A stretch of 39,070 nucleotides of DNA, taken from positions 1-39,070 of the forward strand of contig DVNU01000002.1 of the NCBI GenBank assembly GCA_018714165.1, given 5' to 3'. Every line of letters begins with the position of its first letter. Positions within the stretch are counted from its first letter, which is position 1. Of the stretch, positions 1,877 through 38,092 are shown one piece after another. The position numbers and the translations under genes are program-made. The stretch is from Candidatus Coproplasma excrementipullorum (lineage in GTDB: Bacteria > Bacillota > Clostridia > Christensenellales > Borkfalkiaceae). The notes under the pieces are model-generated. The model was not told the DNA's origin, ran no database searches, and saw nothing but the letters and a program-made list of their open reading frames with translations.

Positions 1877-1938
1877 CTGTTTTGATAAAAAAAGATACAA
1901 TTATGTCTGGCATAGTACCATTTATTTGGCTGATAATA

Positions 1939-1993: not shown

Positions 1994-4015
1994 ATGAAAG
2001 ATGATAAAGACTTTGAGGACGAGCACTCCACTGCCGACGACGGCGATGAAAGGGAAAACACAACAGAACCCGCCGAGGATTCATCCAAGGGCGCAATCAG
2101 CGCAGACCTTATACGCGGACATATCAATACGATAATACTGCGCACCCTCGATGAACGCGACAAATACGGCTATGAAATAATCAATGAAATTGAAGATAAG
2201 TCGCACGGGCAATATACTCTGAAACAGCCCACGCTCTACAGCGCGCTCAAACGCCTTGAAACCCAGGGGTACATAAAGGCCTATTGGAAGACCGACGAAG
2301 TTTCTTCGGGCGGCCGCAGAAAGTACTTTACGCTTACCGAACTAGGAAGAGAATATTCGGAGAAGAATCAAGCCGAATGGGAATATTCAAGGACAGTCAT
2401 CGACTCGCTCATTTCCGACCGTTCTTTCGATTTCTCCCAGCCCGCCCCCACTCCCGTTGATTTCAATATTTTGAAGAAATCTGTTTCAAGGGTATATACC
2501 GGAGGCAAAAGTGAAGAGAGCGAAAGCGTTGTTCCGGATGAAAAAAGAGCCAGTCCTGATGTACAGAGTGAATATGCAAAAAAATACGACCAGATAGAAA
2601 ATTCCCCCGTCAGGAATGAGTACAACAGCCAGACTGTAAGGGACGTTTACGTCGGGAAAGAACCCGAGCAGCAGCCCTCAGAACAGAGCGGCAAAACTGC
2701 TGAAGAAGAAAATCAGCCAGCCCGGGCACAGGAACAAACGACGACCCAACCTATGCGCAATGAGGAGACAGTCCAGGCTCAACCCGCACCTGAATCCGCT
2801 GCCGCACAGGATACACAACCTGCGCAACAGCAGGATATGCCCTTCCCCCAGCAACCTCAGGGAATACCGTACAATGCCCAACAGCCTATGTACGACGGCG
2901 GACAGTACTCTCAGACAGTCAATAACGTTTACGGACAACCTCAAGGCGCATATGGCCCCGTCTATACGGACAGGCAGGTAAATTACTACGGTGATTACTC
3001 CCAGCCTTATCCTCCCTACGGCGCCTCATACCCCCAGCAGGGCTATGTACCTGATCCGTACAACAGGACGGCCTATCCCTACCCTCAGCCTCCCGCACAA
3101 CCCTATCCCCAACAGGAAAACGGCGCAGGAACACAAATTCCCGAACAACCTATAAAGCGCGACCTGTTTGCCACGCAGACGACCCCCGAACAGCCGCGCG
3201 ATACGCGCACCGAGGAAGAAAAGCGCGCCACGCACGAGAATTTTATCAAGCTGATCTCCGAACAGAACGACAAGGAGCGCGGAATTGTTCCCAATAGCGA
3301 GGATATAGACACAGAAAAACTCATCTACACCAACCGTCCCGAAACCGAACGTGACTACAAGAAGCTTGTTAGCAACATATTCAACAAGGCCATCAAACAG
3401 AGCGAACCGCCAAAAAATCAGCCCGCACCTCAGGAGGATGAGGTGCAGCCTGAGCAACCTCAGCAGACACAGACCAGCCACGATCAGATTGAGAACGTGC
3501 AGAATGTGTACTACTCTTACCCCGCCGACCCCGCAGTCGAAAAAGCCAGGGCAGACGGACTTAAGATAAACACCTCCTCTCCCACGGCCGCACGCGCGAG
3601 AGGCTCGCGCGGAACGACGTTCAACAGAGGCGCGGCGATGTTCGCCAGTTCGGTTATAGTTGCCGTAATTCTGCTCATTGAATTTGCCGTGTGCATGGCT
3701 CTGATGCAACCTCTCGGCATAGGAATTATGTATCCGATTACACTGTTGATTATCGCCGTGGTTCAGCTCGGCGTATTCGGCACAATGTACGCCTGCGGAT
3801 TCGGCAGAGGCAGTATACGCCCCGCCAGTCACGGTTACATATCGCTCTGCATAGTGCTGACGATAATAAGCGTGCTCGTAATCTGCCTGGTAAGCTTTTT
3901 ACTCGACATAAATCTTCAGTCGGCGACAGATATAGCAATAAAAATCATCATCCCCTCTATAACCGCGTTGAATATCACGATATTCGGGGTAAGCTACTAC
4001 TTCATAAGCAAATAA
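1994..4015 (+). CDS. PadR-family winged-helix protein with Pro/Gln/Tyr-rich linker and C-terminal membrane domain
   Basis: 673 residues in four parts. Residues 1-35 are acidic. Residues about 37-140 form a PadR-type winged helix (KYGYEIINEI, PTLYSALKRLE, GGRRKYFTLTELG). A long low-complexity linker rich in Pro, Gln and Tyr follows to about residue 540. The last roughly 130 residues contain four strongly hydrophobic helices, two of them starting near MFASSVIVAV and YISLCIVLTI. PadR proteins are normally soluble repressors of 100-200 residues, so a membrane-tethered version is unusual. The predicted topology puts the DNA-binding domain in the cytosol. The promoter is consensus, the RBS strong, and the gene is monocistronic with a terminator. 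It may regulate transcription from the membrane or act as a structural protein; I do not recognise a named homologue. Confidence 0.85.
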   Translation: MKDDKDFEDEHSTADDGDERENTTEPAEDSSKGAISADLIRGHINTIILRTLDERDKYGYEIINEIEDKSHGQYTLKQPTLYSALKRLETQGYIKAYWKTDEVSSGGRRKYFTLTELGREYSEKNQAEWEYSRTVIDSLISDRSFDFSQPAPTPVDFNILKKSVSRVYTGGKSEESESVVPDEKRASPDVQSEYAKKYDQIENSPVRNEYNSQTVRDVYVGKEPEQQPSEQSGKTAEEENQPARAQEQTTTQPMRNEETVQAQPAPESAAAQDTQPAQQQDMPFPQQPQGIPYNAQQPMYDGGQYSQTVNNVYGQPQGAYGPVYTDRQVNYYGDYSQPYPPYGASYPQQGYVPDPYNRTAYPYPQPPAQPYPQQENGAGTQIPEQPIKRDLFATQTTPEQPRDTRTEEEKRATHENFIKLISEQNDKERGIVPNSEDIDTEKLIYTNRPETERDYKKLVSNIFNKAIKQSEPPKNQPAPQEDEVQPEQPQQTQTSHDQIENVQNVYYSYPADPAVEKARADGLKINTSSPTAARARGSRGTTFNRGAAMFASSVIVAVILLIEFAVCMALMQPLGIGIMYPITLLIIAVVQLGVFGTMYACGFGRGSIRPASHGYISLCIVLTIISVLVICLVSFLLDINLQSATDIAIKIIIPSITALNITIFGVSYYFISK

Positions 4016-4020
4016 ACTCC

Positions 4021-4054
4021 CCCGCCGCGCACAATTGTGCGCGGCGGGATTTTG
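4021..4054 (+). terminator. Terminator of the PadR-like gene
   Basis: 4021-4048 is a perfect 28-base palindrome (CCCGCCGCGCACAA and its complement) followed by ATTTTG. It lies 5 bases after the stop codon. Confidence 0.8.
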
Positions 4055-37286: not shown

Positions 37287-38092
37287 AGAAAATTGCTCCT
37301 ATTTTATGGCTTTGCATAGTACTATGTTTCATATACATCCCCATTTTAATGCTTGCTGTGTACTCCTTTACGGATGCGACAATCGTCGGAGGGGGGATAA
37401 ACGCCTTCTCATTTGACAACTACATCAACCTGTTTGCAAATGAGGAACTACGTGATATGATAATCGGAACTGTAGTTCTCGCCCTCGTCTCAGCGGCGAT
37501 TGCCACCATTCTTGGTACGCTGGGCGCAATCGGCGGATTCTATTCCAAAAAGCTGAGCAAGAGACTGCTCCACTCCGCCAATCAGATTCCCGTTGTCAAT
37601 GCAGACATCGTCACCGGTTTTTCGATATGTGTGCTCCTCATTGTCCTTCTGGGCGTAAATAAGGACACCTTCGTCCCCCTCGGCGTCGGCCACGTAGTGC
37701 TCTGCGCGCCCTTCGCATACCTCTCTGTTTTGCCCAAACTCAAGCAGATGGACAACAACCTTTACGAGGCGGCATTAGACCTCGGCGCAACACCCGCGCA
37801 GGCGCTCTTCAGAGTCGTTCTGCCCCAGCTGATACCCGGAATTGTTTCGGGATTCATGCTGGCTGTAACGCTGTCTCTCGACGACTATTTTATAACCACC
37901 TACACCAAACCCTCAACATTCGATACGATAAGCACCTATGTCGTCAATGCTACTAAGGGCGGACAGACGGAGATTAAGACGGCTCTGTGGGCGCTGTCCA
38001 CCCTTATCTTCCTCATCGTCGTTGTGGTGGTGATCGTGATGAACGTAACCTCTTCCAAAAAGAAAGCGGAGGTAAACAATGAAAAAATTTAA
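37283..38092 (+). CDS. potC: Spermidine/putrescine ABC transporter permease PotC
   Basis: 269 residues, about six membrane helices. The EAA loop reads YEAALDLGATPAQALFRVVL. The ORF starts with an ATGA overlap with the potB stop, so translation is coupled. The first helix (IAPILWLCIVLCFIYIPI) and the conserved LSLDDYFITTY segment near the C terminus are typical of PotC. The charged C-terminal tail (SSKKKAEVNNEKI) overlaps the potD start by 14 bases. Confidence 0.95.
   Translation: MKKIAPILWLCIVLCFIYIPILMLAVYSFTDATIVGGGINAFSFDNYINLFANEELRDMIIGTVVLALVSAAIATILGTLGAIGGFYSKKLSKRLLHSANQIPVVNADIVTGFSICVLLIVLLGVNKDTFVPLGVGHVVLCAPFAYLSVLPKLKQMDNNLYEAALDLGATPAQALFRVVLPQLIPGIVSGFMLAVTLSLDDYFITTYTKPSTFDTISTYVVNATKGGQTEIKTALWALSTLIFLIVVVVVIVMNVTSSKKKAEVNNEKI

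Follow-up and report, generated by a model that had tools for sequence, protein, structure and literature searches.

What does a PadR winged helix do when it is one end of a membrane protein? The question is raised by a gene at 1994-4015 on the + strand of the window, by which we mean the whole 39,070-nucleotide stretch of Candidatus Coproplasma excrementipullorum DNA that was analysed. The gene is a single open reading frame whose ATG start is preceded by a GGAGG ribosome-binding site, and its product is a membrane-anchored PadR-like protein of 673 aa. We argue, with a probability of roughly two in three, that this is an autoregulated protein that would bind the replication terminus and is a candidate tether of the terminus to the membrane.

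The DNA-binding end is well defined. A Pfam scan places PadR (PF03551) at residues 48-122 (2135-2359, +) with E=2e-19 and 69.7 bits, where the curated cut-off is 27 bits. At E up to 1 the scan of the 673-aa protein returns PadR plus two weak winged-helix matches only. The closest solved sequence is the PadR protein 9qbc (E=1.8e-25), which puts this part nearest to the solved PadR/LmrR-type repressors. The alignment runs beyond the wing to 9qbc residue 107, so the C-terminal dimerisation helix that follows the wing is present, and dimerisation itself is predicted. Nearly all invariant columns of the homologue alignment sit in the PadR part, including the recognition helix and the wing. The first-pass annotation had allowed that this might be a former DNA-binding domain put to new use in a membrane complex. 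We think this unlikely: conservation is highest in the elements that contact DNA, and a conserved site lies upstream of the gene.

At the other end hydropathy gives four C-terminal hydrophobic helices at residues 553-665 (3650-3988, +), in line with the charges and with AlphaFold2, which models the C-terminal domain at a pLDDT of 88. Across 88 homologues the mean charges are +3.3 before TM1, +0.2 in loop 1, +2.9 in loop 2, -0.5 in loop 3 and +1.4 in the tail. By the positive-inside rule these fit an N-in/C-in topology with a cytoplasmic PadR domain. Pfam has no family beyond PadR for the membrane part of the window protein and its homologues, and the membrane domain has no match among solved PDB folds (best E 2.7). 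Just before it, an alignment of 52 C-terminal domains picks out a juxtamembrane element, ADGLKINT (3552-3575, +), where relatives carry DGLKV/KGYNLKPY.

The two ends are joined by a linker at about residues 150-545 (2486-3628, +, for residues of about 165-545), which we take to be disordered from its composition and variation in length. It had been described as 400 residues of low complexity. The length (~390 aa) and the richness in P/Q/Y/E agree with this, but the linker is not featureless, since it holds two conserved short motifs. One is HENFIKLIS (approximately 3231-3262, +), which recurs as HENYLKLIS in homologues. The other is ERDYKKLVSNIFNKAIKQ (3347-3401, +), whose pattern [DENS]Y[KR]x[LVIF] is found in 78/90 linkers versus 2.6 when linkers are shuffled. 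The peptide ERDYKNLVNNIF also belongs to this disordered linker. Among 90 homologues the linker runs from 153 to 705 aa and is richest in E, A, P and Q.

The fusion is not an accident of one contig. No frameshift or contig join is present at the linker, and the homologues are single open frames. Matches were found in 54 of 61 genomes (the window's own and its relatives), nearly all of the same genus, Candidatus Coproplasma, with one long open frame. All 79 of the 79 complete homologues, which come from uncultured Clostridia and Candidatus Coproplasma, end in exactly four C-terminal TM helices. The annotation of a PadR winged helix, a linker and a membrane anchor of four helices was right. Searching the Clostridia for this architecture with a C-terminal-domain profile (A2) found it in about 120/248 genomes of the order, mostly gut Clostridia, usually within a frame of 370-1005 aa, and in 0/324 genomes of the class outside the order. 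With the fused form this widespread, the idea that the two halves are always separate genes is excluded. It must be noted that the genomes used here all appear to be MAGs and that genes on their contigs were called crudely. One genome, G054, does encode a small standalone PadR, a relative of the fusion's head, at L042:4881-5204; it has 18 motif copies, and the fusion gene was not found in it. We considered this PadR as part of a split version of the protein and rejected the idea, as a partner membrane gene is not visible.

The gene had been credited with a consensus promoter and a strong terminator, and both hold up. The sigma-A promoter (1939-1967, +) is TTGACA-17-TATAAT with an extended -10 (TG), a 12/12 match to the consensus. 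The intrinsic terminator (4021-4048, +) is a 12-pair GC-rich hairpin followed by a T-rich tail. A perfect palindrome, TATTATATGATATAATA, lies over the -10 in the window, but it is not conserved in relatives and was dropped as an operator. Comparison of upstream regions gives a better candidate. The near-palindrome ATTATGTsTGrCATAGTACT, with the core TATGTnnGnCATARTAC, precedes the gene in 76/89 loci, and it is kept also in families whose neighbouring genes differ. In the window this candidate operator is TATGTCTGGCATAGTAC at 1902-1918 (+), with a PWM score of 32. One half-site of the Coproplasma-type site is far better conserved than the other. Fully symmetric copies give the half-site CATAGTACT, then an A-rich stretch. 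The window has a second, weaker candidate, TATATGAAACATAGTAC at 37319-37335 on the - strand (PWM score 22.9, 2 mismatches to the core), and its remaining matches at 2-3 mismatches are at chance level. We infer autoregulation from the upstream site, as tus and rtp each control their own expression through a ter site in the promoter (PMC10331603).

In most Coproplasma loci the site-bearing intergenic region is shared with divergent genes for a YgjP-like metallopeptidase and an acyl-ACP thioesterase (426-1806 in the window). One can imagine that control of the thioesterase is the main function. We reject this: the thioesterase is the neighbour in about 63 loci and is swapped elsewhere, while the gene and its site persist. 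In another family (L110-L122) an uncharacterised multi-TM protein takes the divergent position; the copy at L110 was tested and has no NCBIfam match.

The site is not limited to this promoter. At one mismatch the core has 20 copies in the window's own genome versus 1 for a reversed control. Coproplasma genomes have about 8-35 copies each versus about 1 in controls, and nearly all of them are enriched. The Coproplasma-type motif is enriched in 43/120 genomes with the C-terminal domain versus 5/128 without it (p=5e-11, which is optimistic because the genomes are related). One genome of the same family, G133, has neither the gene nor the sites, and an apparent exception, G121, has a gene truncated at a contig end. 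Could a different protein bind the dispersed sites, with the PadR fusion merely having one in its promoter? That PadR binds the site is our inference, and sites without a detected fusion gene do occur in four Coproplasma genomes and in G203, G316, G056 and G054, some of which may be accounted for by incomplete assemblies. Against a different binder stands the co-occurrence above, and so does a second family. The membrane domain occurs without the Coproplasma motif in 77 genomes, and one such family was examined for a motif of its own. In f3 the palindrome AA(C/G)TATTATA-N15-TATAATA(C/G)TT lies upstream of the gene, overlaps the -35 and is fully symmetric. Its half-site, TATAATACTT, resembles the Coproplasma half-site, CATAGTACTT, and the half-sites are 15 bp apart in f3 versus 5 bp in Coproplasma, a difference of one helical turn. 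A scan of contig G038:C2 specific to spacing gives 11 pairs at the right gap, at 42-148 kb, versus 0-2 at every other gap, with a matrix built from sites that include two from this contig. Here the GC-skew peak is at 50 kb and dif at 64.3 kb, and the best f3 site is 450 bp from dif. Both the gene and the terminus of f3 thus have a palindrome that differs from the Coproplasma one but is related to it, and therefore site and gene vary together. We consider a different binder the least probable of the accounts discussed here.

Where the sites lie is the heart of the argument. At two mismatches they fall on one or two contigs: 48/50 in G002, 25/30 in G030, 10/12 in G026 and 15/16 in G072. None of the site-rich contigs of these genomes carries dnaA. 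A PWM trained only on the window's genome (G000) was run on three large contigs of other genomes. Its sites surround the switch from plus to minus of GC skew and gene strand, which is the replication terminus, and shuffled sequence gives 0-2 sites. The terminus of each of the three contigs is marked by the GC-skew peak, a dif-like site and a XerS-like gene.

The dif-like site is a short conserved intergenic element, TTCGTAAAA-N6-TTTTACGAA, found once per contig when terminus regions are compared. It lies about 100-170 bp upstream of the XerS-like recombinase gene (NF003462 match at E~1e-50, below the NF003462 cut-off) and within 0.1, 0.3 and 3.5 kb of the cumulative GC-skew peak on the three contigs. 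An intergenic site near a recombinase gene and the GC-skew peak has the published hallmarks of dif (PMC2731167). The canonical B. subtilis or E. coli dif was looked for and not found. The element and the recombinase suggest a single-recombinase dimer-resolution system in this order of Clostridia. Between dif and the nearest terminus site lie 490, 171 and 528 bp; a random position would be this close with a probability of 0.03, 0.015 and 0.09. In the window's own genome the distance is 781 bp. In other families the PadR-TM gene adjoins the XerS-like gene or dif. The form TTCGYAAAA-N6-TTTTRCGAA stands next to a XerS-like recombinase at L129:719-742 (the window's own genome), L155, L170, L032:7459 and L033:5607. 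Further positions of this form are G026:C1:198307, G072:C1:592342, G030:C1:103943 and G038:C2:64308.

It is worth considering whether the sites are simply the regulon, located in the terminus region, of an ordinary membrane-bound one-component transcription regulator. A conserved site does lie beside the gene's own promoter and the divergent thioesterase promoter, and intergenic sites are enriched (31/61, in sequence that is about 90% coding). However, the other 30/61 sites lie inside genes such as miaA, argC, coaE and hisA, where they recur at matching positions across species. The intergenic ones are 19 tandem, 9 convergent and 3 divergent. Those 3 are the PadR-TM gene's own promoter in each of the three genomes, the sole divergent promoter region with a site on the mapped contigs. 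The neighbours vary by family, and clustering and polarity around dif are left unexplained. Such a regulator is a long shot. The first-pass annotation had suggested a one-component membrane regulator; the part of this that survives is probable autoregulation of its own gene, and the part that does not fit is the spread of sites around the terminus, half of them in genes. In argC the site is at the same position in 31/35 sequences, and no other 6-codon window of the gene is as conserved at synonymous positions (0.83 versus a mean of 0.45). With the recurring in-gene positions this means that selection acts on the DNA. Judged by its sequence conservation, the site is under selection both in front of the gene and in the terminus region. 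No site was found in argJ, argG, ygjP or rny. In several species a site falls on or next to the start of what we take, from sequence alone, to be a gene for a dnaB-like replicative helicase (L133:1501-1517; G072:C1:743207; G030:C1:158068).

The Coproplasma sites are also polar. Orientation follows the replichore in 51/61 merged sites, with 10/61 misoriented, and the flip around dif is significant (Fisher p=3e-7). Polarity is not a coding artefact, since intergenic sites alone are oriented too (27/31). This is more than a simple anchor needs, and we count it against the tether. The main rival is a polar replication fork trap like Tus/ter or RTP/ter, in which PadR halts forks that have overrun the terminus and the membrane part has a lesser role. 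RTP is a winged helix as well. The flip at dif, the uneven half-sites and a gene apparently autoregulated by a terminus-type site all speak for a fork trap. However, the f3 sites are fully symmetric, several Coproplasma sites score on both strands, and up to about 50 sites per genome is many. Neither the four-helix anchor nor the conserved linker motifs would be needed. The window protein has no Tus or RTP Pfam match, and one homologue has a sub-threshold RTP match (E=0.057). We think a fork trap unlikely.

The tether must also be compared with known systems. In site distribution it would work most like MatP/matS of Escherichia coli and Vibrio, where a site-specific DNA-binding protein has about 20 palindromic sites, all within the terminus region; E. 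coli has 23 matS in 800 kb (PMC3330122). On the mapped contigs of Coproplasma and f3 our sites are likewise palindromic and confined to the terminus region. Unlike MatP, PadR-TM is unrelated in sequence (no MatP match in the window protein at E up to 1), has an integral fused anchor and longer sites that are polar in Coproplasma, and belongs to an order of Clostridia. Compared with Tus and RTP, which share with Coproplasma polar sites that flip at dif and a terminus-type site in their own promoter, PadR-TM is membrane anchored and has many more sites, symmetric in f3. Noc of Bacillus binds DNA at sites dispersed over the chromosome and also binds the membrane (PMC8429893). It is ParB-like and binds the membrane reversibly through a CTP switch, whereas PadR-TM is PadR plus four TM helices with sites at the terminus, and the Pfam scan of the window protein finds no ParB-like DNA-binding or CTPase domain. 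The HAAS-PadR signalling dyad also couples a PadR winged helix to a membrane protein (PMC11237479). There a standalone PadR works with a separate HAAS protein; here it is one chain. The window protein and its homologues have no HAAS/DUF1700 domain and the adjacent genes are different ones, so with no Pfam or PDB fold match we reject HAAS or another known domain in the membrane part. The CadC/ToxR type likewise combines DNA binding with a TM region in a single chain, but PadR-TM has four TM helices, a very long linker and sites scattered around the terminus, with half of those mapped lying in genes. PadR is absent from the main text of a survey of transmembrane transcription regulators (PMC10269533). 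In the literature library that was searched we found no paper tying PadR to the chromosome terminus, which is weak evidence.

We argue that the tether would work as follows. PadR dimers would bind the palindromic sites spread roughly 100-300 kb around the terminus and dif, and the protein would regulate its own gene through the site in its promoter. The disordered linker and the four-helix domain would link this part of the chromosome to the inner face of the cell membrane. The anchor would probably keep the sister termini at the place of division and of XerS/dif dimer resolution. That an integral membrane protein tethers the terminus macrodomain directly through PadR and a disordered arm, across an order of Clostridia and with a XerS-like/dif system, is to us an even bet.

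How the terminus is marked and positioned outside the enterobacteria and Bacillus is largely open, as tus and rtp are limited to a few clades (PMC6549158). Even for MatP, which touches lipid membranes, it is doubtful that terminus DNA is brought to the membrane, since in vitro MatP did not bring matS there (PMC6538776). In PadR-TM a covalent link joins DNA binding to membrane anchoring. With candidate sites known to the base and a candidate dif mapped, tethering of the terminus can be tested directly. If our reading is true, a PadR repressor has become a protein that organises the chromosome, and this would be a chromosome-terminus system new to biology.
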